Below, in pieces: positions 4,138 to 18,210 of a stretch of DNA of 22,885 nt; position 1 is the first letter of the stretch, and each line of letters begins with the position of its first letter. The DNA lies in contig JASHQT010000106.1 in NCBI GenBank assembly GCA_030039005.1, positions 1-22,885 of the forward strand, in the 5' to 3' direction. The position numbers and the translations under genes are program-made. This stretch comes from Bryobacteraceae bacterium. Lineage in GTDB: Bacteria > Acidobacteriota > Terriglobia > Bryobacterales > Bryobacteraceae. The notes below the pieces were generated by a model. The model made no database searches. It was not told the origin of the DNA and worked only from the letters and a program-made list of their open reading frames with translations.

Positions 4138-4761
4138 CTACTCGGAATCCAGGTGAAGAAGCTGTCTGATAGCTGAAGTAGACAGCGTGACGGCCAGAAG
4201 TAGCGCATTGCAGATTTCCCTGTTGGTGAAGACCGTGAGGCCCTGATCGTCTCTGGAAGAGAGATCGGTCACCGAACTCCGCAGGAGGTCGTGGGCGTGG
4301 GTTAGAAGTTCAGTAACTGTAGGAGAATCCTGGGTCAACGCGGCGCTGTGAGCTATGGCTTCAAGGAGCGCGCAGATCTCTTCCGCAGATGCTTTGAGAC
4401 AAGCGCAACAAGCCGGAATCGATTCCATCAGCCAGGTGCAGGGGTACACGCCGAGCAGAAACGCTGCCTCTTCGATTGCACCTAGTATGCTGTTAAGGCT
4501 CGACGAGAGTAGGCGCAGAGCCTCGGGTTTGCAGCCGTTGCTGAAGACCGTCGTAAATTCCGAGAGTAGGGCCGTATTCTCGGATGCAAGGCGGTCATTG
4601 TTTGTCTGGAGCAGTCGGATGCTTCCTGCGAGCTGAGGCCGGATTCCTATAAAAGATCCTGCCTCCTCTACCAAAAGAGACGTCGCGCCTTTGATGAGCG
4701 CGGCCTGCGCCACAAGGTTCTCGAAAACATGTGCTTGGTCTTTGGGGATGTTTCGCGCCAC
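4138..4761 (-). CDS. DUF47/PhoU-like helical protein
   Basis: A 207-residue all-helical protein that resembles the DUF47 family, the PhoU-like partner of Pit phosphate transporters. The opening (DQAHVFENLVAQAALIKGA) matches the family's F-x-x-L-x-x-QA-x-x-x-x-x-GA helix, and LNSILGAIEEAAFLLGVY corresponds to the conserved LDDVLDAIEEAA helix. The E/DxxxD metal-binding residues of classic PhoU are less clear, so this is a divergent member. The GTG at 4761 is chosen because AGGAGA lies 7 bases upstream; the frame is open beyond it without a good signal. It stands in a minus-strand operon behind MCDYSL-1 and a fluoride-type riboswitch. No Pit transporter is present in the window. Confidence 0.65.
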   Translation of the reverse strand: MARNIPKDQAHVFENLVAQAALIKGATSLLVEEAGSFIGIRPQLAGSIRLLQTNNDRLASENTALLSEFTTVFSNGCKPEALRLLSSSLNSILGAIEEAAFLLGVYPCTWLMESIPACCACLKASAEEICALLEAIAHSAALTQDSPTVTELLTHAHDLLRSSVTDLSSRDDQGLTVFTNREICNALLLAVTLSTSAIRQLLHLDSE

Positions 4762-5037
4762 GGTGTATCTCCTGGGGTCCTCAGGTGAACGAGCCAACGA
4801 CTGGTCGGGTGTGGCGACGTGGTGCGAGCAGGTACGTCTGATCGAGAATCGGGACGCTCCTCCAATGTTGTTTGAGGTTTCGTTCCAGAGCGGGAGGGAG
4901 ACAAAAGCAGTTCGCCATGAAGGTCGCGGAACGCGTGCCGCCTGGTATACACGTGTGGCCAACGCGCTCGCTCGGTTTGAGTTGGGCTTCGCCCATCAAG
5001 CTAAGTCTCTTCACCGGATCGATCCCTTGGCTTTCGA

Positions 5038-5571
5038 TCACCAAACGCCGGGGAGGCCCTCGGGCAGGGTACGTCGGAGGCTTGCTGGTCGGCCGCGTAG
5101 TCCATCAGGAGAACGTTGAACGACAAGATATTCATTATTTCGCGACACTGTCTCTAGTACCTGAACTCCAACTCCCGGCCCGAATCTCTGCAATAGGACT
5201 TCGCGCCCATTCATGAAACGGACTGCGTCACGATAGCGGTTCTGCGACGCTGTTACCTCAGTAAACGTTACCTCCTCCCGCGCACTGACGGCCGCGGACC
5301 GCTGGATTTCTTCGGGGATGCCATAGAGTCTTAGAAGCGCACCTGGAGGAATACAAACGGCACAAACGACCGGTATGGCCCGAGCGTCAGTACGCCGCAT
5401 TCGCACCTTCCACCACGGCACACGTTGAGCTCGGCCAAGTGAAGTCCTTGCAGCCTGAACTTCTTCAGGGGACGCTAAGCCTACAGAGCCGTTTGGAAAT
5501 CTATGCGTCATCAACACCTCTCCTTCGGCTACCAGCCTATTTGGAAGGTTCATCAGCGAATAGTCACACAT
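5038..5571 (-). CDS. MCDYSL-family hypothetical protein, copy 1
   Basis: A 177-residue soluble protein of unknown function. It begins MCDYSLMNLPNRL, a start shared with the paralogue at 9750. Both also share an AVCIPPGA segment and a C-terminal block (TFTE, then S-x-N-x-(F/Y)-RDA-(V/L)-R and NGREVLLQ). Proteins beginning MCDYSL are known as uncharacterised conserved proteins in several soil bacteria. The ATG at 5571 follows AGGGAGAG about 9 bases upstream. This copy is the first gene of the minus-strand operon whose leader carries a type B fluoride-like aptamer. The Cys2 at the very N-terminus is striking and could be a modification or metal site, which is inference. The last 30 residues are Arg/Pro rich and not shared with copy 2. 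Confidence 0.8.
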   Translation of the reverse strand: MCDYSLMNLPNRLVAEGEVLMTHRFPNGSVGLASPEEVQAARTSLGRAQRVPWWKVRMRRTDARAIPVVCAVCIPPGALLRLYGIPEEIQRSAAVSAREEVTFTEVTASQNRYRDAVRFMNGREVLLQRFGPGVGVQVLETVSRNNEYLVVQRSPDGLRGRPASLRRTLPEGLPGVW

Positions 5572-5814
5572 GGTCTTCTCTCCCTTTTTAAGCGAAGCTG
5601 CTGCTGGGGACGACCTGCCCGTTGCAGGAAAGACGAGAGCATAGACTGGCTCCGCAATGGTATCGGTTGGCATTTCTGCCGAGCTTGTTGCCTCGGCGGA
5701 TCTTGTGAGTCGCAGTGGCCCGTCGTCTTGGTTCCATGGAACCGCTTTCGTAAACTTCTAAGCTGGAAAGTCTGAGGAAGGCCAGCGTTCGCAGACACCC
5801 ACAGCAATCCCGCT

Positions 5815-5866
5815 GCAGGAGTCATTGACCGCCGTTTGAGGCGATGATGTTGCGGACTCCACCGCC
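5815..5866 (-). promoter_or_regulatory. Fluoride (crcB)-type riboswitch aptamer, type B copy 1
   Basis: On the minus strand the aptamer begins GGCGGUGGAGUCCGC. GCGG/CCGC forms P1. AUCGCC/GGCGGU forms P3. GGAGU pairs with ACUCC of the AAUGACUCCUGC end as in crcB RNAs. The canonical A6 and U38 are G (5862) and C (5827), a compensatory swap. Beyond the aptamer, ACUCCUGCAGC (5812-5822) can instead pair with GCUGUGGGUGU (5795-5805), 10 of 11 positions including wobbles, which would dismantle the aptamer. No U-run follows that stem. It leads MCDYSL-1, DUF47 and HAD after about 240 bases of leader. Confidence 0.82.
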
Positions 5867-5872
5867 AGCTAA

Positions 5873-5902
5873 AACCTAACAGAAAGCTGCTCTTCGAGTC
5901 AA
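5873..5902 (-). promoter_or_regulatory. Sigma70-like promoter of the MCDYSL-1 operon
   Basis: TTGACT (5902-5897), an 18-base spacer and TAGGTT (5878-5873). The -10 ends 6 bases before the aptamer, exactly as in the metK promoter, which uses the same TAGGTT hexamer. Transcription should therefore start at or just before P1. Confidence 0.65.
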
Positions 5903-6040
5903 GACGCGACGGCGCGCAGGCGCGCGAGGTCGCGGCCACGGTCGAGCAAGCTCAGACTCAGCCATTCGCCTCGGGACCGAAATGTATAGACGACACAAGT
6001 GGACATAGTTAGGGGTATTCCAAAACGGGAGTCGCGACAT

Positions 6041-6069
6041 TTGACGAACCCAATCGCTGCGCTGATAAT
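6041..6069 (+). promoter_or_regulatory. Sigma70-like promoter of the Nudix-Hsp70 operon
   Basis: TTGACG (6041-6046), 17-base spacer, GATAAT (6064-6069). The aptamer begins 9 bases after the -10. The divergent MCDYSL-1 promoter lies 138 bases away; that interval holds no gene that I can support. Confidence 0.7.
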
Positions 6070-6078
6070 GAAAATCGA

Positions 6079-6130
6079 GGCGTTGGAGTTCGCCAATAAG
6101 CGCCCCATCACCGGGGAAGATGACTCCTAC
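6079..6130 (+). promoter_or_regulatory. Fluoride (crcB)-type riboswitch aptamer, type A copy 1
   Basis: GGCGUUGGAGUUCGCC gives P1 (GGCG/CGCC) with the conserved UGGAGUU loop. A CCCC/GGGG P3 follows, then AAGAUGACUCCUAC, which closes the pseudoknot (GGAGU/ACUCC). This differs from canonical crcB RNA mainly at the 6-38 contact, here U6083 and A6118. Right after it, ATGACTC (6120-6126) can pair with GAGTCAT (6148-6154), an alternative stem that competes with the aptamer. It leads the Nudix gene after about 200 bases. Confidence 0.85.
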
Positions 6131-6327
6131 GATGGATGTTAACGGATGAGTCATTGCCTCGGACCCAAAATCACGCGAAAATACCCCATTCGCGGACTTC
6201 GGTGCCCTCTGAGGTCCTTGGGTAAACGAAGAACTTGAACTAAGGGTCTTGGTACGCGTCATCGGATACGCGAGGCATGTCGTGATTACCGCCAATGGAT
6301 GCCGATCGGACTTGAGAAGAAACAGGT

Positions 6328-6804
6328 ATGGATCTCTGGAAAATCTGCGATATGGGCCACATTCATTGGGGCGACACGGGAGCTGCCGGATTTCTCTTTC
6401 GGCACGTCCTCGACAGTGGCGAATCCAGTTTTCTGCTTCAGCAACGTTCCACTGCGGTTGACTACCCAGGAACGTGGGGTATTCCCGGCGGTGCCATTCG
6501 CGATGGGGAGTCTCCTGAGGCGGCTGCGAGGCGCGAGTTTCAAGAGGAGATCGGCCCCTTGCCTTCGTATCGTATTACCGGAATGAAGGTTCAGGACTGT
6601 GGAGGAAATTGGCAATTCCATATGATCTTTGCGGACGTCTCGGAGCCATTCCTCGCGTTCTGCGGGAAAGAGACAGATTCAACCGGATGGTTTACGAAGA
6701 GCGAGATGACCTCGCTGGAGTTGCATCCTGGTCTAGAGGCGTGGCTTCGTGAACAGATGCCTGGTGTAGAGGAGACTCCATTGTCGCCCTGGAAGCGGCC
6801 TTGA
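6328..6804 (+). CDS. Nudix hydrolase
   Basis: A 158-residue Mg2+-dependent hydrolase of nucleoside diphosphate-linked substrates. The Nudix box is complete at residues 55-76 (G-x5-E, x7, REFQEEIG): Gly55, Glu61, Arg69, Glu70, Glu73 and Glu74 are present. The upstream strand (GFLFRH, FLLQQRS) and PGTWGIPGG are typical of the MutT/ADP-ribose group. The C-terminal helix has HPGLEAWLREQMP. The start at 6328 is preceded only by a weak GAGAAG; ATG at 6352 is an alternative that keeps the whole fold. It is first in the operon after a type A aptamer, 38 bases ahead of the Hsp70-like gene. House-cleaning of damaged or accumulating nucleotides is a plausible role (inference). Confidence 0.88.
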   Translation: MDLWKICDMGHIHWGDTGAAGFLFRHVLDSGESSFLLQQRSTAVDYPGTWGIPGGAIRDGESPEAAARREFQEEIGPLPSYRITGMKVQDCGGNWQFHMIFADVSEPFLAFCGKETDSTGWFTKSEMTSLELHPGLEAWLREQMPGVEETPLSPWKRP

Positions 6805-6842
6805 AAACTTCGATGTCAATGTTTCGGGGAAGGCCATAGCAC

Positions 6843-8147
6843 ATGCCTTCCACAATGGTGGGACTGGACTTTGGAACCACGAACAGTTCTATCGCGCGAT
6901 GCACGAATGGAACTGGATCGGTTGAGCTCGCTCGATTTCAACTGTTCGGCGAAGTCACCGAATCCTATCGATCTCTCCTCTATCTGGAACTTATTCGCGA
7001 TCACGGAAAAGCGAGCCTCGCGTCGTGGACCGGTCCGGCGGGAATCGAGCGTTACTTGTCGAGGGAGGTTGCAGGGAGACTCATTCAATCGCTCAAATCC
7101 TTCCTCACCAGCCGGACGCTCGAGACCACTGAGATATTCGGCCGCCGCATCACTCTGGAAGATCTGATCGCCCGTATTCTTCGCGATTTGCGAGAGCGCG
7201 CTGAACTGCAGTTCGGAGCGCCAATCACTTCTGCCATGGTCGGCCGTCCCGTACGATTCGTGGGAGCGGAGACGGAGGAGGATAACGTTTACGCGGAAAT
7301 CCGGCTTCGGACGGCTTTCCATCTCGCGGGTTTCGAAGCCGTAGAATTCGAACTTGAGCCCGTGGCTGCAGCGCATTTTTACGAATCAACGCTACAGCGA
7401 GAGGAGCTCATCCTGATTGGTGATTTTGGAGGAGGTACCAGCGATTTTTCATTGATGCGTGTTGGCCCCACCGTTCTCCGCCGGGGCCGTACCAGACAGG
7501 ACCTCTTGGGCAATGCGGGAATCGGAGTCGCTGGGGACGCCTTCGACGCGAAGATCGTCAGGCATTTGGTTTCTCCGCATCTTGGAGCAGGAACGATGAT
7601 GCGATCGATTAACAAGATTCTGCCAGTTCCAACGTGGGTATACGCGAAGCTTGAACGGTGGCATCACTTGTCGCTGTTGCAAGCCAGGGACACGATGAAC
7701 CTGTTGCGTAGCGTTAGGGGGCAAGCGCTGGAACCAGAAAAACTCGAGGCCCTAATTCATTTGGTCAGTGAAGATCTTGGGTATCGCCTGCATCATTCGG
7801 TGCAGAAAACCAAATGCGAGCTGTCGAATGCGATGTCCGCCCGATTTGAACTGTCGGATGGATCGATCAACATTGATGCGGTAGCGCAGCGCTCTTGCTT
7901 CGAAGAATGGATTGCGGATGAGGTCGCCGCGATTGAAAATTGTGTCGATTCGCTCCTTCGAGACTCTGATGTTCGTCCATCGGACGTGAACATGGTCTTC
8001 TTGACTGGCGGTTCCTCGTACGTCCCAGCGGTCCGAGGGATTTTCGAGCGGCGATTCGGGGCCGAGCGAATACGTACGGGAAGCGAGTTTACTTCAGTCG
8101 CGCAGGGATTGGCGCTCGTTGCAAAAAAAAGGTCGCTTGTCGCTTAG
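6843..8147 (+). CDS. Hsp70-family ATPase, YegD-like
   Basis: A 434-residue actin-fold ATPase. PHOSPHATE-1 is GLDFGTTNSS (residues 7-16), PHOSPHATE-2 is GDFGGGTSDF (DFGGGT at 194-199) and the ADENOSINE motif is FLTGGSSYVPAV near residue 390. ELEPVAAA is the usual linker helix before PHOSPHATE-2. The protein stops soon after the nucleotide-binding domain and lacks a DnaK substrate-binding domain, as in YegD and related proteins of about 450 residues. GGGAAGG stands 9 bases before the ATG; Met5 is an alternative start. It is co-transcribed with the Nudix gene behind a type A aptamer. The client is unknown; a chaperone-like role under stress is inferred. Confidence 0.87.
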   Translation: MPSTMVGLDFGTTNSSIARCTNGTGSVELARFQLFGEVTESYRSLLYLELIRDHGKASLASWTGPAGIERYLSREVAGRLIQSLKSFLTSRTLETTEIFGRRITLEDLIARILRDLRERAELQFGAPITSAMVGRPVRFVGAETEEDNVYAEIRLRTAFHLAGFEAVEFELEPVAAAHFYESTLQREELILIGDFGGGTSDFSLMRVGPTVLRRGRTRQDLLGNAGIGVAGDAFDAKIVRHLVSPHLGAGTMMRSINKILPVPTWVYAKLERWHHLSLLQARDTMNLLRSVRGQALEPEKLEALIHLVSEDLGYRLHHSVQKTKCELSNAMSARFELSDGSINIDAVAQRSCFEEWIADEVAAIENCVDSLLRDSDVRPSDVNMVFLTGGSSYVPAVRGIFERRFGAERIRTGSEFTSVAQGLALVAKKRSLVA

Positions 8148-8398
8148 ACGGCGATCTCTTTTCGAACTTCGGCGATACGGGGCGCGCCATCGTGAATTTC
8201 GTGAGGCAAGATGTTCTCAATGAGAAGCGTTGCATATTACTCAGAATCTACGATCTAGCAACTTGAATGTTGAGGATAGAGGATGGTCGCGTTGTCGGGA
8301 TTCAGAACGGCGGCTGAGCAACGTCATCTATCTAGAGCGCCAGCACCACAAAAAACCGTATCCGGCAAGATTTTTTATTATGCCATCCGATTTTTTTC
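8148..8398. other. Intergenic region before the metK promoter
   Basis: This gap lies between the Hsp70-like gene and the metK promoter. It becomes AT-rich with T-runs near 8371-8377 and 8391-8397, just upstream of the -35 box, which may act as an UP-like element. No coding frame is supported, and I see no clear terminator for the Hsp70 operon. Confidence 0.45.
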
Positions 8399-8427
8399 TT
8401 GACAGATGCAATGACATTTGTTAGGTT
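8399..8427 (+). promoter_or_regulatory. Sigma70-like promoter of the metK operon
   Basis: A consensus TTGACA (8399-8404), 17-base spacer and TAGGTT (8422-8427), with T-rich DNA upstream. The aptamer starts 7 bases after the -10, so the transcript should begin almost exactly at P1. Confidence 0.75.
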
Positions 8428-8433
8428 GTTCGT

Positions 8434-8483
8434 GGCGGTGGAGTCCGCGCCAACATCGCTTGACGGCGATCAATGACTCCTGT
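8434..8483 (+). promoter_or_regulatory. Fluoride (crcB)-type riboswitch aptamer, type B copy 2
   Basis: It begins GGCGGUGGAGUCCGC. P1 is GCGG/CCGC, P3 is AUCGC/GCGAU, and the end CAAUGACUCCUGU pairs with GGAGU. G8438 and C8471 replace the canonical A6-U38 contact. The 3' strand is shared with the terminator that follows, the classic layout of a ligand-on switch: ligand-bound aptamer keeps ACUCC busy, so the terminator cannot form and metK is expressed. SAM riboswitch classes were considered because the gene is metK, but their motifs are absent. Confidence 0.85.
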
Positions 8484-8514
8484 GGCGAGAGCGCTGCAGG
8501 AGGTTTTGTTTTTT
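8477..8514 (+). terminator. Intrinsic terminator, expression platform of the metK riboswitch
   Basis: CTCCTGTGGCG (8477-8487) pairs with CGCTGCAGGAG (8492-8502) over 11 positions, nine Watson-Crick and two G-U, with an AGAG loop. GTTTTGTTTTTT follows. The 5' arm overlaps the aptamer's pseudoknot strand, so aptamer and terminator exclude each other. Confidence 0.85.
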
Positions 8515-8567
8515 AACCCCCTCCCTCCGCGTGTTCTCCCAAACAACCTAACGTAAGGAGCAGAGTT

Positions 8568-9737
8568 ATGAACTCTGAGGTAGGTTTGGAACGTTTTGGC
8601 GCGCACAGCGCGATGGCTACCGCTGAGATGGTAACGGACGGACATCCCGACAAATTCTGCGACCAAGTGGCGGACGCGATTCTGGATACGGCTTTGCAGA
8701 AGGACTCGAAGACGAAGGCGGGAATAGAATGTCTCGCCAAGGACAGTCTCCTCGTTGTTTCAGGGGAAATGAGCACCGGGGCCAATCTCGATATTGAGGA
8801 GATAGCCCGAGACGTTTGGGAGAACGTTGTTGGGTACGGCCCCGGCGAGGAACTCACTGTCATCAGCCACATCAAACTGCAATCTCCTGACATAGCGCGC
8901 GGAGATCATAGCGACGCCAGCGGAGTTGAAGGCGGCGGCGCCGGCGATCAGGGCGTGATGGTAGGTTACGCCACTGACGAAACGCCGGAGATGCTGCCAC
9001 AAGAATATGTGTTGGCGAGAGATCTCTGCTTGGGCCTTAAGTCGCTTCGTGACATGGGAACCAAGTGGCTGCGTCCGGATGGCAAAAGCCAAGTTACGTT
9101 GCTCGGGGGAAAAGTAAAGAGTGTCGTTCTCGCCGCGCACCATGATGCCCAGGTTTCCACGACTGAGGTTCGCGAGGTTCTTCGCAAGAAGGTCATCGAA
9201 CCCGTTCTTGGTTCCCATCTCATTGAAGATTCCCGAATAGTGATAAACGGAACCGGGAGGTTCACAATCGGAGGACCGAAAGCCGACGCCGGAGTAGTGG
9301 GACGAAAGATCGTTGTAGACGCCTACGGACCTCGCGTCCCGGTCGGTGGAGGTGCATATTCTGGCAAGGACCCGTCCAAAGTGGACCGAAGCGGAGCGTA
9401 CATGGCGCGTCACATCGCAAAGGCTGTGGTCCAGAACAAGTTGGCAAAGGAGTGCATGGTGGTGCTCGCCTATGCTATCGGGCAACACCAACCGGAAATG
9501 GTGCGCATTATGACGCGTCCCCATGCCAAGGAAGTGGAGCGTTGGGTTGCGGAGTACTTCAAGGATCTCAGGCCCGAGGCCATCACCGAGTATCTCGGCC
9601 TGAGAAATCCAAAGGGTTGGAGTTACCGTTCGACAGCTGCGTTCGGCCACTATGGGCGCGAGGCATTTCCATGGGAACGTTCCGTCTCTCTACCAATGAA
9701 GAAGACCGCACGAGCGAGCGTTGCAGAAAGCAAATAG
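8568..9737 (+). CDS. metK: S-adenosylmethionine synthetase
   Basis: A 389-residue enzyme that makes SAM from ATP and methionine and releases PPi and Pi, using Mg2+ and K+. Visible signatures are DGHPDKFCDQVADAI (ATP/methionine site), GAGDQGVMVGYATDETPE, PDGKSQVT, TGRFTIGGPKADAGVVGRK and the glycine-rich GGGAYSGKDPSKVDRSGAY. Length fits the bacterial family. Several normally strict positions differ in flavour (GYAIGQHQPEM near the end, MGTKWLRPD), so this looks like a divergent second copy and not the housekeeping gene. AAGGAG lies 8 bases before the ATG. It is controlled by a type B aptamer with terminator and followed 12 bases later by MCDYSL-2. A fluoride-tolerant isozyme is a reasonable guess, not shown. 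Confidence 0.95.
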   Translation: MNSEVGLERFGAHSAMATAEMVTDGHPDKFCDQVADAILDTALQKDSKTKAGIECLAKDSLLVVSGEMSTGANLDIEEIARDVWENVVGYGPGEELTVISHIKLQSPDIARGDHSDASGVEGGGAGDQGVMVGYATDETPEMLPQEYVLARDLCLGLKSLRDMGTKWLRPDGKSQVTLLGGKVKSVVLAAHHDAQVSTTEVREVLRKKVIEPVLGSHLIEDSRIVINGTGRFTIGGPKADAGVVGRKIVVDAYGPRVPVGGGAYSGKDPSKVDRSGAYMARHIAKAVVQNKLAKECMVVLAYAIGQHQPEMVRIMTRPHAKEVERWVAEYFKDLRPEAITEYLGLRNPKGWSYRSTAAFGHYGREAFPWERSVSLPMKKTARASVAESK

Positions 9738-9749
9738 AGAGGATCCAAT

Positions 9750-10235
9750 ATGTGTGACTATTCGCTGATGAATCTTCCGAACCGCTTGGCGAACGAAGGC
9801 GAAATCCTGGTGACGCATAAGTTCTCCAGCGGGTCAGTCGGATTTGTAGCATTGCAGGAGCTGTGCGCTCACCGAAACCAATCCGAGAGCAAGCCAACCG
9901 GCCTATGGAGCACCATAAAGGTTTGGTTTTCCGGACCTCCGGTTCTCCCCGGCCTGGCGGCAGTATGTATTCCTCCAGGCGCGAGATTGCAAGTGGTGTC
10001 TGTTTCACTTCGAGGGGACAAAGGCCTCGGTGCACAGCCCGACGATGAGTTGACGTTCACGGAGCTTTCCGCGTCATGGAATCAGTTTCGCGATGCCCTC
10101 CGTCTTAGGAATGGACGCGAAGTTCTTCTACAGAATGTAGGAACCGGCCTTCAAGTTCAAGTCGTCAGCCTTGCGTCGGCAGAGGAGCTGGAGTCGCACG
10201 CCGAGTACGTGAACGGTGTCCCTCTACGCCGTTAG
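9750..10235 (+). CDS. MCDYSL-family hypothetical protein, copy 2
   Basis: A 161-residue paralogue of the protein at 5038-5571. The two share the MCDYSLMNLPNRL start, a following G-E-(I/V)-L-(V/M)-TH-(K/R)-F block, AVCIPPGA near the middle, and NGREVLLQ near the end with TFTEL and RDALR before it. No membrane segment, signal peptide or known catalytic motif is seen. GAGAGGA precedes the ATG by about 6 bases. The gene lies 12 bases after metK and 72 bases before the SatP-like gene, so the three form one transcription unit. Both copies sit under type B aptamers, which ties this unknown family to the same signal. Function is unknown. Confidence 0.85.
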   Translation: MCDYSLMNLPNRLANEGEILVTHKFSSGSVGFVALQELCAHRNQSESKPTGLWSTIKVWFSGPPVLPGLAAVCIPPGARLQVVSVSLRGDKGLGAQPDDELTFTELSASWNQFRDALRLRNGREVLLQNVGTGLQVQVVSLASAEELESHAEYVNGVPLRR

Positions 10236-10307
10236 TTGGGCCAATTGCCTGGGAAGTCCAGCGCTAACGCCACCCAGAGCTGGTTGTTTCAGAAAGGGAG
10301 GATCTAC

Positions 10308-10904
10308 ATGAATAAGACGTCAAAATCCGTGGCAACGACAACCATCGGGTACATGTGCCTCGCGTTGACCGGATGGATGGTCTCAATGCCAAACGCTTCC
10401 TGGTTCTCTAAATCCTACGCCTATGGGGACGCGATGCTATACCCTCTAGCTGTCGTACTCGCTGTGATGGGTATATTGTCGTTTCTTCAAGGCCGAGCCT
10501 TGGACGCGATCGTTTTCTTCGGCGGAGGTGGACTGTTTTGGTCGGACTACCTCCACATGGCCGCAGCAACTTCCGTCGGCACAGCGGACCCACCGACCTA
10601 TGTGGGATGGTACGCCTTTATTTGGGCAGTCTTCTTCTGCTACGTCTGGCTGGGGGCCTTCAAGAGCGGCATCATCCGCTTCTTGTTCCTACTTGCGCTT
10701 TGGCTAACATTGCTTGCCCTTGCGATCGGAAATTGGGGCGCCATCCATGGCTTCGTCGTTCTGGGGGGGTACCTTGGTTTGATCACCTCGATTCTTGCCG
10801 CAATTGCGTCTGCTTTCGACGTAATAAGCTTCGGAATGAAAGTGGGAGATCCGAATCGCGAGATCGTGCCTGGCCTAAGCCCGACTCCGATCAAGGCGGC
10901 TTAG
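10308..10904 (+). CDS. Acetate/succinate transporter family (GPR1/FUN34/YaaH, SatP-like) membrane protein
   Basis: A 198-residue integral membrane protein with about six hydrophobic helices. The pattern matches the YaaH/SatP family: a first helix ending near MPNASWF, a conserved small-residue region LQGRALDAIVFFGGGGLFWSD, and helices around YVGWYAFIWAVFFCYVWLGA, LALAIGNWGAIHG and the last GYLGLITSILAAIASAF. Members form anion channels for acetate and succinate in the inner membrane. The classic N-terminal NPAPLGL signature is not present, so substrate could differ. The ATG at 10308 follows GGGAGGAT; the frame extends upstream without need. It is third in the metK operon behind a type B aptamer. 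Export of a small anion under stress is possible (inference). Confidence 0.8.
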   Translation: MNKTSKSVATTTIGYMCLALTGWMVSMPNASWFSKSYAYGDAMLYPLAVVLAVMGILSFLQGRALDAIVFFGGGGLFWSDYLHMAAATSVGTADPPTYVGWYAFIWAVFFCYVWLGAFKSGIIRFLFLLALWLTLLALAIGNWGAIHGFVVLGGYLGLITSILAAIASAFDVISFGMKVGDPNREIVPGLSPTPIKAA

Positions 10905-11228
10905 TGGCGCCGGCGAAGCGCTCGTGCAGTACTGCTGCTCGAAACGGCGGGAGGTGTCCACGCGTGAGCGCAGCGATGGGAGGTTGATCTGCTTCGGTGG
11001 GTCGTTTTGTCTCCCGGCAGAAAGAAGGTATGCGTCCTGGTTTGAGTACTTCCACGCCGTTTCCGCCATCCTACATTACTGTCCAGGAGTTTGGGAGTTC
11101 TGCTGCGGGCCCGGTATTGCCCCCAATTTGTTTTCGCGGCGGGAGCAAGTCACGGTGTCTCAACCCCATCACAAAGAATCTTCGCAACTAGTCGTGACGG
11201 TCCCAAACTCCCGCCGCATCATCTAAAG
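10905..11228. other. Intergenic region between SatP-like gene and glnA promoter
   Basis: Frames of up to 100 codons exist here but lack a ribosome binding site, a recognisable motif or reasonable composition. GC-rich short inverted segments occur, none followed by a U-run. I see no supported gene or terminator. Confidence 0.45.
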
Positions 11229-11257
11229 TTGACTCCATCCGGCAATGCGTTGACAAT
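11229..11257 (+). promoter_or_regulatory. Sigma70-like promoter of glnA
   Basis: TTGACT (11229-11234), 17-base spacer, GACAAT (11252-11257). The aptamer begins 8 bases after the -10. The spacing matches the other type A promoters. Confidence 0.68.
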
Positions 11258-11264
11258 AGATAAA

Positions 11265-11317
11265 GGCGTTGGAGTTCGCCCTTAAACGCCCCTTCGACCG
11301 GGGAAGATGACTCCTAC
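11265..11317 (+). promoter_or_regulatory. Fluoride (crcB)-type riboswitch aptamer, type A copy 2
   Basis: GGCGUUGGAGUUCGCC, then AAACGCCCC and GGGGAAGAUGACUCCUAC: P1 GGCG/CGCC, P3 CCCC/GGGG and the GGAGU/ACUCC pseudoknot. The 6-38 contact is U11269 with A11305. Downstream, GACTC (11309-11313) and CCAG (11317-11320) can pair with GAGTC (11335-11339) and CTGG (11330-11333), a competing stem. CAGGGAT (11318-11324) also matches ATCCCTG (11367-11373). No U-run follows, so control may act by another route than simple termination. It leads glnA after about 270 bases. The known glutamine (glnA) RNA motif was looked for and not found. Confidence 0.87.
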
Positions 11318-11588
11318 CAGGGATCTTGACTGGCGAGTCGTTGCTTCCGAACCAACTCACAAGAGAATCCCTGCTGCTGACTAGTTTGCCGATTTCATCG
11401 CCGGCGGTCCTCGTGACACCGGCGTCATTCGCGGCATGGGGCGAGTCTTGTCATCCAGTCGCGCTGCCGTGGACCTCGACGACCGCGACAGATTGGACCA
11501 GACGGCGCGCGACTAAGCGCGCGCTACGTCTTAAACCTGGAGCTCGAGTGGCTCTATCTGGCATTTAATTATCCAAATAGGGGGAACA

Positions 11589-12998
11589 TTGACGCCTAAC
11601 GAAGTCCTTGAATTCGCAAAGAAGAATGACGCAAAACAGCTTGATCTCCGCTTTACCGATTTGCCTGGGGTCCAGCAGCACGTTTCTTATCCGATCACTG
11701 AACTTGAGGAGGGTTCCTTTGAAGACGGTTTCGGATTCGACGGCTCAAGTATCCGCGGATGGGCCGCCATCAATGAGAGCGACATGCTGCTGGTCCCCGA
11801 TCCGGCGACAGCCATGATCGACCCGTTTTTCGAAACGAAGACTCTAGTAATGCTATGCAACGTCATCGATCCCGTCACGCGGCAACACTATGACCGCGAT
11901 CCGCGCTGGATCGCGCGTAAAGCCGAACTATACTTGACCAATTCAGGCGTGGCCGATACTGCTTACTTCGGCGCTGAAGCGGAGTTCTTCATCTTCGACA
12001 ACGTCCGCTTCGATCAGACATCGAACAAAGGCTTCTACGAAGTGGACGCGGAGGAAGGCCGTTGGAATTCGGGACGTGCCGACAACAATCTTGGTTATCG
12101 TCCTCGATATAAGGAAGGCTATTTCCCGGTTCCTCCGACCGATCATCATCAGGACCTGCGCGCGGAAATGGTCGAGACGATGATTCAGTGCGGCCTCAAT
12201 ATCGAATGCCATCACCACGAAGTTGCTACTGCTGGCCAATGCGAGATCGACCAGCGCTTTGACACGCTCGTCAAGTCCGCCGACAACATGATGATGTACA
12301 AGTACATCATACGAAACGTCGCTTATGTGCACGGCAAGACCATAACCTTTATGCCCAAACCGCTGTTCGGGGACAATGGCAGCGGAATGCACACGCACCA
12401 GAGCCTCTGGAAGGACGAGCGTCCCCTTTTCGCAGGCGACCTATATGCTGGTTTCAGCAAACTTGGCTTGTGGTACATCGGAGGATTGTTGAAGCATGCC
12501 AGGGCCCTCGCCGCGATCATTGCTCCGACTACGAATAGCTACAAGCGCCTTGTGCCGGGCTATGAGGCTCCAGTTAACTTGGCCTACTCTCGGCGAAATC
12601 GTTCCGCCGCCTGTCGCATTCCCATGTACTCGGCCAGCCCGAAATCGAAACGCGTTGAATTCCGCCCGCCAGATCCATCTTGCAACTGCTATTTGGCTTT
12701 TGCAGCGATGCTGATGGCCGGTCTCGACGGAGTGCTCGGCAAGGTCGAACCAGGCGAGCCACTTGATAAAGACATTTACGACTTAACGCCAGAAGAGATG
12801 AAAGCAGTACCTTCGATGCCATCCTCACTTGAAGAAGCTCTCGGTGCGCTCGAAGAGGATCATGATTTTCTCCTCAAAGGCGATGTATTCAGCGAGGACC
12901 TACTCGAAACCTATATCGGCTACAAGCGAAAGAACGAGGCCGACGCGGTGCGACTCCGTCCCCATCCCTACGAATTCGCCCTCTATTACGACATCTAA
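11589..12998 (+). CDS. glnA: Glutamine synthetase, type I
   Basis: A 469-residue GSI enzyme that forms glutamine from glutamate, ammonia and ATP; it works as a dodecamer in the cytoplasm. I see DGSSIRGW near residue 52, [21 protein letters not shown], the ATP-site [33 protein letters not shown] and [11 protein letters not shown]. Tyr397 in [11 protein letters not shown] matches the adenylylation site of GSI-beta, so GlnE control is possible. The start is a TTG at 11589 with GGGGG five bases upstream; no ATG fits. Some usually fixed positions differ ([12 protein letters not shown] in place of EFR-F-PDPS-NPY), which suggests a second, divergent copy. It is single behind a type A aptamer and converges with the MutS-like pair. 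Confidence 0.95.
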
Positions 12999-12999
12999 C

Positions 13000-13053
13000 G
13001 ACAGCGATACGATACCGCCCTAGCCGGCAGAATCGTATCTTGCGAGTCCTGTC
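13000..13053. terminator. Possible hairpin terminator after glnA
   Basis: GATACGAT (13006-13013) pairs perfectly with ATCGTATC (13032-13039), and outer GACAG (13000-13004) matches CTGTC (13049-13053). It starts just after the glnA stop, between convergent genes. There is no U-run, so function is uncertain. Confidence 0.35.
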
Positions 13054-13222
13054 AAGGCCAATATGTGAGCCAGTTACAAGCGTTCTCCCAACGTTGACCT
13101 ACCGTTGGCTCGCCGGCAAGCGGCCCTTGCTGACCAACTAGAGGCGGCGCGACTCGTCTTTGGCGGCATTCTTGCGCCTTAGCGACGCCCACTCCCGATG
13201 AATTGTCTGCGGTGGCATCTGC

Positions 13223-14728
13223 TCACCCCCCAAAGATGCGGCGATAAAGATCCTCCCCGTGACTTGTCGGAAGTGGCTCGCCCTCAGACAATCGGTAGGT
13301 GCGCTGGCCATCTGAAAGCCTTTCGGCACGAAGAAAAAGCGCATCCTTCATATTCCGGCTGTAGAAGCCATGGGACAAGTCGTACATGTGAGTTACGAAA
13401 ACGACTTTGATCTCAGATTCGAGCAGGCCGCGCACGATCTGCCTCGCGATTTCGGAACCCTCCCGTTCATTGGTGGAAGCGAACGATTCGTTGAAGAGCA
13501 CCAGGCTATTGGAAGAAAGGTGCTCGACAATCGAGGTCATTCGTCTCAATTCCTCATCGAGCTTCCCGCTTTTCATGGAGGCGTCTTCTTCACGTTTGAA
13601 GTGGGTAAACACGCTCGGCCGAATATCAGCCCGGAAGAACTTTGCCGGCACGAACATACCAGCTTGCATCATCAATTGAGCCGTGCCAATGCTGCGCAGC
13701 AGCGTCGACTTGCCTCCACGGTTGGCACCCGTCACGATCATCAGCGTCTTGTCGCTCGCCTGGATGTCATTGCTGACTACGCGATCTGACATTCTGAGGC
13801 TAAGGCTTGCGTCGTACAGTCCGCGGGTAGAAAGGTCCGCCTGACCCAGGGGCAGCGGCTCAGGGAGGCAGACAGGTTCGCCTTTTCCAAGCAAGCGGTC
13901 ACGGAGATTGATGCATCCAATGTAAAAGGCGAGTTCCAGACGAAGCATGTTGAAGAAGCCTAGGATATGATCGCTCGACTGCGCAAGCGCTGCTCCAACG
14001 TCAGAGATCCCCTCATCTGTAAGATCTGATAATGCACGGTAGCCAGACTCGTCACGATCTGCAATCTCATAAAAGAGTTTCGAGCCTCGCTTGCCCGTTA
14101 ACCAGTCCTGAGCTTTCTCCCACCAGCGCCGGCTGTCCATCCAGGGCTTCCGAAGCACGTAGTCGATCCCTTTGTTTCTGGTTCCGAGTGCCGCCGTCAT
14201 TACCAGCGCGCCACGAAACTTCAGCCGCGCCACGTGGTCATCTACCGTCTGCATGTAGGGCTCAACCAGTTCGGTTGCAATCATCCGGAAGAGGCGCTGA
14301 AACCCTTCGGAATGAAACTGTGCGCCCTTGTCGGCTGCGATCTGCCGCAACTTTCTGAGCAGGGCCGAAAACATCTCCAAGACATCAATACCTCGGTGTA
14401 AGGCGCCCGAAGGATATCGCGAGGCCATCCATCCCCATGCCTTCTTCTCACTCTCGATCGCCTCTACAGCTAAGCCGTAAAGCTCCCGCACCACCCAGGG
14501 ATTATCGAGACAGTCCGTGAGAATGTGCTGTCGATATAAGATCGACTCGACATTGCCGAGGCTGGCGAGGAGTGCAGCCTTGGCGACGTCTAGCAAGAAC
14601 TTGTCTCCATCGGCCATTGTCTCGAGCAGTTTCTGCAGTTCCAAATCCTGCACCAGGTCGGGCGCGTTGGGAACCCGAGCTTCGCCTGCAGTAAAATCCT
14701 TGTCACGGTACATCAAGAAGACTTTCAC
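13223..14728 (-). CDS. MutS-like ATPase, second of pair
   Basis: A 501-residue protein with a C-terminal MutS domain V-type ABC ATPase. Walker A is GANRGGKSTLLRSIG near residue 334, the Q-like/D loop region has FTHFKREED, and Walker B plus signature is LVLFNESFASTNEREGSEIA. The Walker B aspartate of classic MutS (MDE) is Asn here, while the catalytic Glu remains. The N-terminal two thirds is helical like the MutS lever and clamp region; the mismatch-binding domain I with its FxE motif is absent. The ATG overlaps the stop of the first gene by four bases (ATGA). Genes of this type are recorded downstream of crcB riboswitches in other bacteria. The target is unknown. Confidence 0.85.
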   Translation of the reverse strand: MKVFLMYRDKDFTAGEARVPNAPDLVQDLELQKLLETMADGDKFLLDVAKAALLASLGNVESILYRQHILTDCLDNPWVVRELYGLAVEAIESEKKAWGWMASRYPSGALHRGIDVLEMFSALLRKLRQIAADKGAQFHSEGFQRLFRMIATELVEPYMQTVDDHVARLKFRGALVMTAALGTRNKGIDYVLRKPWMDSRRWWEKAQDWLTGKRGSKLFYEIADRDESGYRALSDLTDEGISDVGAALAQSSDHILGFFNMLRLELAFYIGCINLRDRLLGKGEPVCLPEPLPLGQADLSTRGLYDASLSLRMSDRVVSNDIQASDKTLMIVTGANRGGKSTLLRSIGTAQLMMQAGMFVPAKFFRADIRPSVFTHFKREEDASMKSGKLDEELRRMTSIVEHLSSNSLVLFNESFASTNEREGSEIARQIVRGLLESEIKVVFVTHMYDLSHGFYSRNMKDALFLRAERLSDGQRTYRLSEGEPLPTSHGEDLYRRIFGG

Positions 14729-16326
14729 GATCCCACCCGTTTCCGATTGTTCGATGCGATGCGCGACTTGACGGCGTCGTAGGTGAGCCGATACTTCTCT
14801 GCGAGCGCCGCGGCGTACGCCAGACCATCCGCGGGCCTTCGCACCACTTTGAATGTTCGCTGGGCTGGATCTGCGGGGTTTACAGTGCTCACCATGCTGA
14901 CCGTCGATTCGCTGAAGGCCGCAAGCTCATCGAGAAACGTGACGGACACGCAGATCAAGTCGAGCGCGACGATTTTCTGCATCATTTCATTGCTGAGGAA
15001 GATCGCGTCATTCAACGTCGTGGAAAGGAAGCTTTCGTTCATGATCAAAATACTGTTTGAAGTCGCCTCCGCCAGAATGGCCCGAATCCTCAACAGTTCG
15101 TCTTCCAGCTTGCCACTTAGATTCCGTAAATCCTCTTCTCTCTCGAAATGGGTGAACAGCTTGTCGAACAGAAACAGTCGCGAAGCACGCCCCGGAATCG
15201 GAAACCCGATGCTCGCGAGGTAATGGAGCTGCCCAACGGTCCGGGCAAAGGTTGTCTTGCCGCCCTGGTTCGGGCCGGTCACCACGAAGACTCGCTCCGA
15301 ACCTGTCAAGTGGAAATCATTGGTTACCACTGGGACGTTCTCACTTACCAACCGTGCCGCGAGGGCAAGATCGAACGTCTCTGCGGACAGAATCTCTTTG
15401 GATGTGTCAGATACCGCTGGGAAGCAGAAGGAGAGCCCCGCTTGTTTAAGGGGTTCAATGAAGTCAAGGCAGGCAACATAGAACTCGATCTCGCGATCGA
15501 ACCTGGCGATCGTATTGTCCACAAACTGCGAGCGACGAGCCGTGTACTCGTCTAAGTACGCAAAAACGTCAGGAAACAATTGCACCACCAAATCCAAGAT
15601 TGCCGCCTCGACGTGGTTCATCTCCACAATAAAGCGATGATCGAAGCGATATTCCTTTGAAACCCCTTCCTTGAATTTCTCAAATGTCGCGAGCACGTCA
15701 GCTCGATAGTCAGGTTCATCCTCGCACTGAGTGACTGTAATGCGCTTGCCTTGGATAACCAGACGATATTTGATTCCGGCTAGGCCGGACCGCGCCTTTT
15801 GTGTTTCGGCGACCATGGACTGAAAATCATGGGAGTTCACATAGGCTGTCAGGAAGCTCCGGAATGACGTGAATCCTAGCGAGGCCGGAGAGGCGTCCGC
15901 GAGTCTCTCGGCAAATCGGACGACGGCGGAGCAATAGCAATCGACGGCGTCGATGAATGCCGCCTGTTTCTGGCGAGCATAGTAGTGTTTTTCTCTCTGC
16001 GCCAAATAACGGCGCATTGTCCGCATGTCTTCAGCAAAAGCACGAACGCTGTCCGTCAGGTGACGATCCTGGAGATCCCGAAAAATGTCGTACCGATAAT
16101 TGATCTCGGCGACGGAGCGCAGAGAGGTGTGGAAGAACGGCTGCAGCTCGTATTCTTCACGGCCAGCGGTTGCCTTCGCTACGACCTGATCGAGGTTCAG
16201 ATCACGAAAACACTCAGGGGACTCTTCCCGAATCTCCGGCTTATCCGACCTAAAGGCGAACAAGATACTCTGAAAAATGGAAATCGGGGATGCCTGATTC
16301 ATCGGGACAACAACCTGTTCACCCAT
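14725..16326 (-). CDS. MutS-like ATPase, first of pair
   Basis: A 533-residue relative of the next gene. Walker A is TGPNQGGKTTFARTVGQL near residue 350, followed by a FTHFEREEDL segment, and Walker B is ILIMNESFLSTTLNDA, again with Asn for Asp. The domain I for mismatch recognition is missing; the N-terminal part is helical. Starts: ATG 16326 after GAGGG is chosen; ATG 16302 and TTG 16389 are alternatives. Two unequal MutS-type ATPases in one operon suggest a heterodimer, as MutS-family ATPases always pair. About 300 bases upstream on the same strand lies a type B aptamer, so this operon should answer to the same signal as metK. Confidence 0.85.
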   Translation of the reverse strand: MGEQVVVPMNQASPISIFQSILFAFRSDKPEIREESPECFRDLNLDQVVAKATAGREEYELQPFFHTSLRSVAEINYRYDIFRDLQDRHLTDSVRAFAEDMRTMRRYLAQREKHYYARQKQAAFIDAVDCYCSAVVRFAERLADASPASLGFTSFRSFLTAYVNSHDFQSMVAETQKARSGLAGIKYRLVIQGKRITVTQCEDEPDYRADVLATFEKFKEGVSKEYRFDHRFIVEMNHVEAAILDLVVQLFPDVFAYLDEYTARRSQFVDNTIARFDREIEFYVACLDFIEPLKQAGLSFCFPAVSDTSKEILSAETFDLALAARLVSENVPVVTNDFHLTGSERVFVVTGPNQGGKTTFARTVGQLHYLASIGFPIPGRASRLFLFDKLFTHFEREEDLRNLSGKLEDELLRIRAILAEATSNSILIMNESFLSTTLNDAIFLSNEMMQKIVALDLICVSVTFLDELAAFSESTVSMVSTVNPADPAQRTFKVVRRPADGLAYAAALAEKYRLTYDAVKSRIASNNRKRVGS

Positions 16327-16600
16327 TGCAGCCCTCGAGTTGGGCTTGCGAACGCGCAGAACACACGGCGTCAGCGGGTTCAACGGCAAGCGTGTTCAAA
16401 ATCTTTGCGCGCTCCGTTTTAGGCATAGTTATCAGACGAGACGTAGCTTGAACGGACGGTAGCCCGCCACATTGGATTGTGCCCGCGAATATGGAATCAG
16501 CGCCCCGGAAAGTCACAGGCGCTCGAAGATCTACCGCTTTGTCATTAGAAGTGCTCCGGCCCACCGTCGAGCTCCCATCCTTTGCGGGAACTCACGAAGG

Positions 16601-16625
16601 TCCCGCAGTTTTCGCAACTGCAGGA
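16601..16625 (-). promoter_or_regulatory. Anti-aptamer hairpin in the MutS-pair leader
   Basis: UCCUGCAGUU (16625-16616) pairs with AACUGCGGGA (16610-16601) over ten positions with one G-U pair and a GCGAA loop. The 5' arm is part of the aptamer's 3' end, so the two structures exclude each other. A second possible stem with GCGGGA and UUCCCGC follows. No U-run is present. Confidence 0.6.
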
Positions 16626-16666
16626 GTCATTGGCCGCGCTGGCGACGTTATGCGGACTCCACCGCC
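16620..16666 (-). promoter_or_regulatory. Fluoride (crcB)-type riboswitch aptamer, type B copy 3
   Basis: GGCGGUGGAGUCCGC with P1 GCGG/CCGC, P3 GUCGC/GCGGC (sequence differs from the other type B copies but pairing is kept) and CAAUGACUCCUGC that pairs with GGAGU. G16662 and C16632 replace the A6-U38 contact. It leads the two MutS-like genes. Confidence 0.83.
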
Positions 16667-16688
16667 GACAGACAAACGCTTCGTTCAC

Positions 16689-16716
16689 ATCATAACATCA
16701 GTCGCCATTGATGCAA
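16689..16716 (-). promoter_or_regulatory. Possible promoter of the MutS-pair operon
   Basis: TTGCAT (16716-16711), a 16-base spacer and TATGAT (16694-16689). The -10 ends 22 bases before the aptamer, further than in the other five leaders, so this call is weaker. Confidence 0.4.
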
Positions 16717-16834
16717 TTCGCCTGCCACGGATACGATTGAGAGTAACCATTTCCTCAGCCTCCATGATCCGGTGCGCTGGCGGACCTCCGGCCAGGGCTC
16801 GGGTTTCGAAGAGAATGCCTCATCTTTGATACGG

Positions 16835-16863
16835 TTGACTGGAACTAGGTTGACGCCCATAAT
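16835..16863 (+). promoter_or_regulatory. Sigma70-like promoter of the HEAT-dynamin-MeaB operon
   Basis: TTGACT (16835-16840), 17-base spacer, CATAAT (16858-16863). The aptamer begins 8 bases after the -10, as for glnA. Confidence 0.7.
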
Positions 16864-16870
16864 TAAGACA

Positions 16871-16920
16871 GGTGTTGGAGTTCACCTTGAACCGCCCCAC
16901 CAGGGGAAGATGACTCCTGT
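16871..16920 (+). promoter_or_regulatory. Fluoride (crcB)-type riboswitch aptamer, type A copy 3
   Basis: GGUGUUGGAGUUCACC forms P1 as GGUG/CACC, a compensatory change from GGCG/CGCC in the other type A copies. P3 is CCCC/GGGG and the end is AAGAUGACUCCUGU, pairing with GGAGU. The 6-38 contact is U16875 with A16908. Downstream, GAGG/CCTC (16921-16924 with 16929-16932) and ACTC/GAGT (16913-16916 with 16941-16944) form a competing stem, and GAGGGAT (16921-16927) matches ATCCCTC (17031-17037). The first gene starts about 290 bases later. Confidence 0.86.
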
Positions 16921-17207
16921 GAGGGATTCCTCGGGCGGAAGAGTGACCAACATCTCCCCACGTTCTTTTCCGCTGGTTTGAAGTCCCGCCGAGCCGAGCG
17001 CAGCAGAGGCACTAGCATCGGCCGGCGAGGATCCCTCGTAGAGCAGGAAGGGTTTCGATGCCAATCGGAAAGTCCGAGGACGGGCTCACTTCGCTTAATC
17101 AACTGCATCCACTTTCCGAGCGCTTGATGAGCTGATAACTTGCTAGCGGATCGATCCGCTATCGACCCGCGCTCATTCAGGGTATTCCGATTGATAAGAG
17201 GTGAACG

Positions 17208-18194
17208 ATGACTGGCCAAGGGAATTCGGGTATTGAAAGATTTGTCAACGACGCACCAGATACGGAGATCAGTCAGTTGGTCCGGGATCTAAACTCGTTG
17301 GAGGCGGGCGAACGGACGGTAGCGAAGTTGATTCTCCAGGGCCGTGCCATCATCGAGCCTCTGAAGGAGTTTCTCTTTCGCGGCAAGCCAAGCGCGGTTT
17401 ATCAGCCCCGGCGGTGGGCCGTTGAAGCTCTCGCCGGCGTTGGCGCCAAGGCCGCACTGATTGAATATTTGACGTGGAAGAAGGAGATTCCTGACCCCGC
17501 CGTACGGCTTGGCGAGCAAGCCGTAGAGAACGCTGCCGCCCGAGCACTGGCGGCCTGGCGTACGCCGGAGGTTTTCCAGACCCTCTCAAAAATCGCCTCT
17601 CCACTTCCACAGCTGGGACTGGTCGAGGCATTGGGGGCGTTTAAGAGACCTGAACCAATCCCCTATTTTATCCGCGCCCTGGAAGATGATATGTGCCGAT
17701 CAGCGGCCGAAGAGGCTCTCCGAAAATTGGGAGCGGTAGCAATGCCGGCACTGCTCGAAGCCGCGACCGCCCGAGCTCCTTCCGCGGAAGAGGAAGCACC
17801 ATCGAGCGTACTAAGGCGTGTGAGCGCCTTGAATCTCCTTACGGAACTCAGGTTAGGGTCCGATGTCTGGCTGGTGCTGCGCCCCCTTCTCTCAGACTCA
17901 CATTCAGAAGTAGTGATCGCGGTGTCAAAGGTTGCGACGAAGTTCGGCGATTCGGAGGACAAACTCGCCACCGTGCGTCGTGTGCTTGAGATTTTGCCGT
18001 CGGTTCCTTGGTTTGCTCAGGAGGAAATCGAAGACTGTCTGGTTCGCGTCTATCCGGTAGGGAGAGCAATCCTGGAGGCGGAAACAACGCGCCGGGATTC
18101 GATGCCCGGTGAGCAGAGAGTCATGGATCGCGCTCTACGAGTCCTATTGCGGGTCAAGCGCCGACTGGCGGCTCGCGAGCACGGAACGGAGTAG
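17208..18194 (+). CDS. HEAT-repeat protein
   Basis: A 328-residue soluble protein built from paired helices. Repeats are visible as A-V-E-A-L-A-G-V-G-A-K-A-A (about residue 70), ALRKLGAVAMPALLEAA (about 170), and PLLSDSHSEVVIAVSKVATKFG (about 235), the pattern of HEAT/PBS-lyase scaffold proteins. It probably binds another protein, most likely its operon partner, the dynamin-like GTPase that starts 16 bases after its stop. AAGAGGTG precedes the ATG at 17208. The operon is led by a type A aptamer. The exact partner is inferred from context only. Confidence 0.8.
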   Translation: MTGQGNSGIERFVNDAPDTEISQLVRDLNSLEAGERTVAKLILQGRAIIEPLKEFLFRGKPSAVYQPRRWAVEALAGVGAKAALIEYLTWKKEIPDPAVRLGEQAVENAAARALAAWRTPEVFQTLSKIASPLPQLGLVEALGAFKRPEPIPYFIRALEDDMCRSAAEEALRKLGAVAMPALLEAATARAPSAEEEAPSSVLRRVSALNLLTELRLGSDVWLVLRPLLSDSHSEVVIAVSKVATKFGDSEDKLATVRRVLEILPSVPWFAQEEIEDCLVRVYPVGRAILEAETTRRDSMPGEQRVMDRALRVLLRVKRRLAAREHGTE

Positions 18195-18210
18195 CAAGAA
18201 CGAGGATTTC

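Follow-up and report, generated by a model that had tools for sequence, protein, structure and literature searches.

Six putative fluoride-riboswitch aptamers stand within 11 kb of a 22,885-nucleotide (nt) stretch of DNA from a Bryobacteraceae bacterium of the Acidobacteriota (GenBank assembly GCA_030039005.1, contig JASHQT010000106.1), called the window below at its full length. They fall into two classes, in which the tertiary pair A6-U38 of the known fluoride aptamer is replaced by U-A or by G-C, and each is predicted to switch on the operon behind it under fluoride, a reading that we hold with high confidence on the strength of sequence comparison.

Two classes of aptamer in the window

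In Thermotoga petrophila numbering, the solved fluoride aptamer joins A6 to U38 as a reversed Watson-Crick pair and A40 to U48 as a Hoogsteen pair (PMC11586693); under Bacillus cereus numbering the same pairs are A10-U38 and A40-U48 (PMC10687018). None of the window's six sites has A6-U38. Aligned to the T. petrophila numbering, three carry U6-A38 (type A) and three carry G6-C38 with A39 (type B). The window was run through cmscan with RF01734, the Rfam fluoride model (gathering score 34 bits), and scored with R3, a covariance model trained on 28 type B sequences taken entirely from other genomes, with none from the window. The six putative aptamers are as follows:

5809..5875, minus strand: B1, type B aptamer (G6-C38, A39); R3 52.3 bits, RF01734 15.7 bits (below cut-off); leader of the 5038-5673 minus-strand gene
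6070..6136, plus strand: A1, type A aptamer (U6-A38); RF01734 34.8 bits (over cut-off); leader of the Nudix and Hsp70-like genes
8425..8489, plus strand: B2, type B aptamer; R3 55.6 bits, unlisted by RF01734 at E ≤ 10; leader of the metK operon
11256..11323, plus strand: A2, type A aptamer; RF01734 39.9 bits; upstream of glnA
16614..16675, minus strand: B3, type B aptamer; R3 60.2 bits, RF01734 17.4 bits (below cut-off); leader of two MutS-like genes
16862..16926, plus strand: A3, type A aptamer; RF01734 37.7 bits; leader of the HEAT, dynamin-like and MeaB genes

An earlier, sequence-only reading of this DNA had placed six aptamers at these sites, and a pattern of P1, TGGAGT, a gap and TGACTCCT matches exactly those six and no seventh. 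The GGAGU/ACUCC pseudoknot, which it had called invariant, is identical in all six, and 13 open reading frames (ORFs) can be counted downstream of the six leaders, in agreement with its figure of at least 13 governed genes. The Rfam comparison that it proposed gave a mixed result: three sites pass the gathering score, two are sub-threshold matches, and the 8434 site (B2) fails to appear even at the relaxed cut-off. P1, also said to be kept, has four pairs in type A and three standard pairs in the window's type B, where the outer position is G.A or G.G. The six had been taken as one uniform class, and here they split 3:3 at tertiary pair 6:38.

The consensus of the window's three type A sites is GGYGUUGGAGUUCRCC...GGGGAAGAUGACUCCU, and that of its three type B sites is GGCGGUGGAGUCCGC...CAAUGACUCCU. 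A40 and U48, the bases of the Hoogsteen pair, are present in all six, as read from sequence alone. U7, G8, U41 and G42, which we take to be the residues around the three Mg2+ ions of the fluoride aptamer, are also retained in 6/6 sites.

Low RF01734 scores, together with the three-pair P1 of the window's type B, could belong to decayed, functionless copies. Against decay, the three sites score 52-60 bits under R3, which never saw the window; strong matches of the same class (69-70 bits) occur in genomes outside the training set of R1, a type B model trained with the window sequences included (e.g., G058, G060 and G092); and the metK copy retains an 11-pair terminator hairpin. We consider decay very improbable. 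Type A sites reach 23.7-30.1 bits under R3, and the best non-aptamer match in the window, inside the Hsp70-like gene, reaches 16.8. In 714,560 bases around 50 genes of other genomes from the 'MCDYSLM' family, to which the window protein at 9750-10235 belongs, R3 found one site at E ≤ 0.001, which is type B and stands before metK. Judged by these comparisons, the window's three RF01734-weak sites are real members of the type B class.

Exchange of the tertiary pair among relatives

Relatives were reached through the 9750-10235 protein: its 2,793 relatives at E ≤ 0.001 pointed to 50 loci, of which 46 are labelled as Acidobacteria. RF01734 matches over the cut-off occur in 18 of the 44 genomes behind those loci, several with many matches on one contig; weak matches (E ≤ 1) were left unused, being also present in 13/14 control genomes (4 over the cut-off). 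The relatives set holds 65 sources and 826,509 bases (the window plus relatives, nearly all Acidobacteria), in which the models gave 113 usable sites, leaving out L112:9871 (truncated), L098:9315 (no usable loop) and L121 (a duplicate locus).

Across the 113 sites, 6:38 is G-C in 49, U-A in 30, A-U in 28 and another combination in 6. The pair is Watson-Crick-matched in 107/113, whereas 2,000 shuffles gave 39.9 on average and 55 at most; none of the models treats 6:38 as a pair, they were trained on groups pre-sorted by type, and kinship of the sequences inflates shuffle tests of this sort. Counted as a pair, 6:38 has 95.6% paired cells and a covariation score of 1.168, which falls to 0.340 or less when the partner is slid by 1-3 columns. 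Compensatory covariation is also found in P1, P3 and the pseudoknot, which pairs in 97.0% of cells (114 distinct rows). Because A6-U38 is absent but the match is kept by covariation, we call types A and B class variants and say that they work like the fluoride riboswitch, instead of claiming plain membership.

All 19 pairs of neighbouring sites less than 400 bp apart are head-to-head, and the window has two head-to-head pairs (5809/6070 and 16614/16862). Such an arrangement would suit repeats that function at the DNA level, for instance as an operator bound by a protein between two divergent promoters, with the RNA fold incidental. The compensatory changes in P1, P3, the pseudoknot and 6:38 speak against an operator, as do the terminator overlap described below and the family-level match to a known RNA. 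Promoter-like sites also precede the aptamer and so put it within the transcript, and we regard the operator as highly unlikely. A preference for mixed-type head-to-head pairs was rejected (13/19 vs 12.7 expected).

For an outside view, every RF01734 match listed at E ≤ 1e-6 was read in three broader genome samples: the class of G022 (274 genomes, 19 matches), the phylum of G043 (148 genomes, 74 matches) and the Acidobacteria, the phylum of the Bryobacteraceae genome G001 (247 genomes, 110 matches, 108 distinct). Low-scoring antisense matches (L293:23, L274:29 and L272:6; 6-9 bits) and matches shorter than 55 nt were not counted, L365 was read by eye as A-U, and ten Acidobacteria matches (L101, L102, L103, L169, L170, L172, L173) were added by hand. 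Outside Acidobacteria the pair is A-U in 92/93 matches, namely 19/19 in the class of G022 and 73/74 in the phylum of G043, where the remaining one is A-C. The 108 Acidobacteria matches comprise 95 A-U, 6 U-A, 6 G-C and 1 G-U. In the samples read, the U-A and G-C exchanges occur in Acidobacteria alone, and they are a minority of the Rfam-findable sites there. The RF01734 gathering score is reached by 11/49 G-C sites, and 38/49 lie below it, the window's three included.

Some further forms were seen in these genomes. U-A aptamers beyond the island set occur in the wider phylum sample at L353, L341, L359 and L360 (G244, G292, G415 and G314). L172, L169 and L170, from other Acidobacteria, are G-C, A39 aptamers in which the junction leading to P3 is longer than that of the window's type B; they may represent an older form. 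In the enolase leaders L109, L111, L153, L106 and L107 the loop is extended (GGAGCAU or similar) and GAUAGCUCC is present, which sets them apart as another A-U subtype; a terminator-like hairpin and T run overlap their pseudoknot strand before the enolase genes.

R1 matches 70/150 genomes of G001's order at E ≤ 0.01, many of them weakly. At E ≤ 1e-6 it matches 18/247 genomes of the phylum, where the best site is G-C in 7/7 read outside G001 (L168-L174) and other matches are cross-matching A-U sites; its matches in the class of G022 (2/229 genomes) are both A-U. The sequence-only reading had set the cluster against a usual one or two fluoride-controlled operons per genome, yet such clusters are not unique. 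Two relatives, L116 and L101, have six sites within 11.2 kb each, so that the window exemplifies an arrangement that recurs, and for Methylobacterium extorquens DM4 at least 10 fluoride riboswitches have been described in one genome (PMC6785547, citing an earlier paper).

Ligand, genes and predicted control of the operons

Up to five genes behind each of the 113 sites were called with a simple ORF caller (none called behind 22 sites), the called genes were grouped by BLAST, and Pfam was used to check one or more members of every main cluster; in gene and promoter counts, the A-U class stands for 28 A-U, 2 A-C and 2 G-U sites. Dynamin-like genes lie behind 27/113 sites (type A 10, type B 10, A-U class 7). 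DUF190 was found behind 1 type A, 13 type B and 5 A-U class sites, CrcB behind 1, 4 and 5, and MutS-like genes behind 3, 1 (the window's) and 1, respectively. Enolase lies behind 2 type B, 8 A-U class and 1 C-C sites, the Na/H exchanger behind 8 type B and 1 A-U class sites, Usp behind 5 type B sites, and pyrophosphatase behind 1 type A and 1 type B site. Genes that the literature places with fluoride riboswitches include those of exporters, Na/H antiporters, pyrophosphatase, enolase and formate hydrogen lyase (PMC11139923), and mutS has been associated with the crcB motif since 2010 (PMC2864571). Because classic fluoride genes stand behind all aptamer types in relatives, fluoride is likely the ligand of all of them. 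The proposal of a multi-operon cluster built around one ligand gains support from these genes, from the RF01734 matches and from the held-out model R3, a support that does not extend to a dedicated island in the sense of a single mobile unit.

Type B differs at positions 6, 38 and 39, mostly falls under the Rfam cut-off and precedes metK in one window copy, as might a variant aptamer for a non-fluoride ligand, either another anion or a metK-tied metabolite, with type A still sensing fluoride. We give this little credence, given that the type B neighbours counted above (CrcB, Na/H exchanger, Usp, enolase and pyrophosphatase, all within the first five genes) are tied to fluoride in PMC11139923 and PMC5533749, and that the six window sites all keep bases 7, 8, 40, 41, 42 and 48. 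A SAM (S-adenosylmethionine) switch before metK was rejected, with no SAM-family match at E ≤ 10 and the same RNA type preceding fluoride genes. Fluoride thus stays the likely ligand of type B as well as of type A. The genes behind the six leaders are these:

4138..4962, minus strand: 274-aa ORF, second gene behind B1, without a Pfam match
5038..5673, minus strand: 'MCDYSLM' family protein behind B1, 42% identical to 9750-10235, without a Pfam match
6328..6804, plus strand: Nudix hydrolase behind A1 (PF00293)
6843..8147, plus strand: Hsp70-like protein behind A1 (PF00012); nearest NCBIfam PRK11678, 220 bits, below its cut-off of 331
8568..9737, plus strand: metK, S-adenosylmethionine synthetase, behind B2 (TIGR01034, 373 bits, cut-off 309.4)
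9750..10235, plus strand: 'MCDYSLM' family protein, second gene behind B2
10236..10904, plus strand: weak acetate-uptake-transporter-like membrane protein, third behind B2 (PF01184, 24 bits, just under the cut-off of 25)
11589..12998, plus strand: glnA, type I glutamine synthetase, behind A2 (TIGR00653, 669 bits)
13223..14728, minus strand: MutS-like ATPase 2 (PF00488), with a 4-base overlap with MutS-like ATPase 1
14725..16389, minus strand: MutS-like ATPase 1, behind B3 (PF00488)
17208..18194, plus strand: HEAT-repeat protein behind A3 (PF13646)
18109..20691, plus strand: dynamin-like GTPase behind A3 (PF00350)
20663..21718, plus strand: MeaB-family GTPase behind A3 (PF03308)

In G001, the metK that follows a type B aptamer is 79% identical to the window's and another metK, located elsewhere, is 44% identical, so that the switch-linked MetK is an extra, diverged copy there; the contig with the switch-linked copy continues with an 'MCDYSLM' gene (L001:2728-3213) and a distant glutamine synthetase. 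G011 has one metK seen, behind a C-C member of the aptamer family. One reading of the window's glnA is that a housekeeping gene has come under the control of the switch. Relatives of the 'MCDYSLM' protein were not found in plasmids or in one scan of viral contigs.

Other genes flank the cluster. A phage-type integrase (PF00589) at 1335-2846 runs over a tRNA-3'-end-like stretch seen by eye at about 2553-2597 on the minus strand, where ARAGORN reports no complete tRNA; this is a likely integration site beside the fluoride cluster. The 179-aa ORF at 3351-3890 (minus strand) has a DVDGTI motif by eye (HAD-phosphatase-like) and no Pfam match, and HAD proteins are often fluoride-riboswitch-linked (PMC11139923). 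Just past the cluster lie VIT1-like (PF01988, 21715-22251) and DUF211 (PF02680, 22251-22535) genes, both on the minus strand.

Candidate control signals lie around the aptamers:

6041..6069, plus strand: promoter-like TTGACG-17-GATAAT, 9 nt before the A1 core
8477..8514, plus strand: terminator hairpin (8477-8502, 11 pairs) and U-rich tail, GUUUUGUUUUUU; top-listed terminator of the region
11229..11257, plus strand: promoter-like TTGACT-17-GACAAT, 7 nt before the A2 core
16835..16863, plus strand: promoter-like TTGACT-17-CATAAT, 7 nt before the A3 core

Promoter-like sequences lie within 60 nt upstream of 18/30 type A, 10/49 type B and 5/32 A-U class sites, and in 0.3%, 0.3% and 0.8% of random stretches of the same loci, respectively. 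By eye, B1 (about 5886-5905, minus strand) and B2 (8399-8426, plus strand) have a common TTGAC(T/A)-17/16-TTAGGT box before the aptamer, which differs from the type A -10 boxes and is possibly a different kind of promoter.

The 5' arm of the metK-leader terminator, CUCC, is part of B2's 3' pseudoknot strand, so that the two structures would be mutually exclusive, and the fold of 8465-8520 (-20.4 kcal/mol, z -2.81) has the hairpin formed. Across the relatives set, hairpins that sequester the pseudoknot strand occur at 38/46 type B sites (24.6 expected) and 26/28 A-U sites (16.6 expected). Terminators sharing the pseudoknot strand, an arrangement in which ligand binding would raise expression, have been described for crcB RNAs (PMC2864571).

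We propose that transcription likely starts at the aptamer and that fluoride held by Mg2+ would lock the pseudoknot, so that the competing hairpin could not form; in the metK leader the locked pseudoknot would let the polymerase read through. When fluoride enters the cell, every aptamer is expected to activate the operon that follows it, about 13 genes in all. Fluoride disturbs Mg-phosphate chemistry, and MetK, GlnA, Nudix, Hsp70-like, MutS-like, dynamin-like and MeaB proteins would act as spare or protective forms of enzymes reliant on it.

Several findings weigh against this reading. Neither a CrcB nor a CLC exporter was found among the 20 window ORFs scanned, and the aptamer-to-gene gap is long at four of the six sites (A1, 192 nt; A2, 266 nt to glnA; A3, 282 nt; B3, 225 nt), with shorter gaps at B1 (136 nt) and B2 (79 nt). 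With an aptamer at 1/50 genome loci, the 'MCDYSLM' family shows no general link to fluoride, and the idea that its protein is a hallmark of fluoride operons was rejected. G032 has a GlnA with 92% identity to the window's, and no aptamer precedes its gene within the 1.5 kb upstream; A2 may thus precede an ordinary housekeeping glnA or leave that gene unaffected. In total number, the promoter-like sites do not exceed chance expectation (5 in 11.7 kb vs a shuffle mean of 5.8), and it is position that counts, not number: 3 of the 5 end 7-9 nt before type A cores. Adding 70 nt of downstream sequence removes the metK hairpin from the minimum-energy fold, which would make the terminator dependent on co-transcriptional folding. 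In type A the competing hairpin is not enriched (13/29 vs 13.8 expected), so the idea that it is common to all classes was rejected for that type. Because the sequences share ancestry, the independent exchanges at 6:38 may be as few as two.

A more speculative idea, which we put forward tentatively and think doubtful at present, is that Acidobacteria split the fluoride riboswitch into parallel classes (A-U, U-A and G-C), and that one cell might run them as sensors with different set-points, giving a staged fluoride response through head-to-head pairs.

Relation to known systems

As 6:38 is part of the fluoride-bound fold, the natural U-A and G-C exchange amounts to an evolutionary double-mutant experiment on that pair, and the type A and B sequences are ready for testing its role in affinity and switching. 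Standard annotation misses the 38 type B sites below the cut-off, so counts of fluoride regulons in a common soil phylum are probably too low. MetK, GlnA, Hsp70-like proteins and dynamin-like GTPases, the last of these behind sites of all three classes, are candidate additions to the fluoride regulon.

The six aptamers resemble RF01734 (the crcB motif, with the T. petrophila and B. cereus aptamers) in P1, P3, the H-type pseudoknot and U7, G8, A40, U41, G42 and U48, as well as in their 5' leader position, the B2 terminator that shares the pseudoknot strand and the resistance genes in relatives. They differ in that A6-U38 is replaced in the window by U-A (type A) or by G-C with A39 (type B), and in that type B is mostly below the cut-off. 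The window's genes also differ from the usual ones, with metK, glnA, Hsp70-like, MutS-like and dynamin-like genes and no exporter seen, although the MutS-like genes match the old association of MutS with the crcB motif (PMC2864571). In the open-licence PMC literature we found no report of U-A or G-C at 6:38, and none of MetK, GlnA or dynamin under fluoride riboswitches, both weak negatives given the limited coverage. As far as these searches show, two things are new: the natural occurrence of two aptamer classes in which the tertiary pair is exchanged, and the linkage of MetK, GlnA and dynamin-like genes to the switch.

Multi-switch genomes and riboswitch-controlled fluoride-resistance islands are already known. 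In Enterobacter cloacae FRM, the island GI3 has a fluoride-resistance cluster under a fluoride riboswitch, with crcB, enolase, pyrophosphatase and Usp (PMC5533749); it is one operon with one fluoride riboswitch, whereas the window has six leaders and other enzymes, among which no exporter was seen. M. extorquens DM4, as described, is like the window in having many fluoride riboswitches, which in the window are gathered into one short cluster, belong to two classes and form head-to-head pairs.

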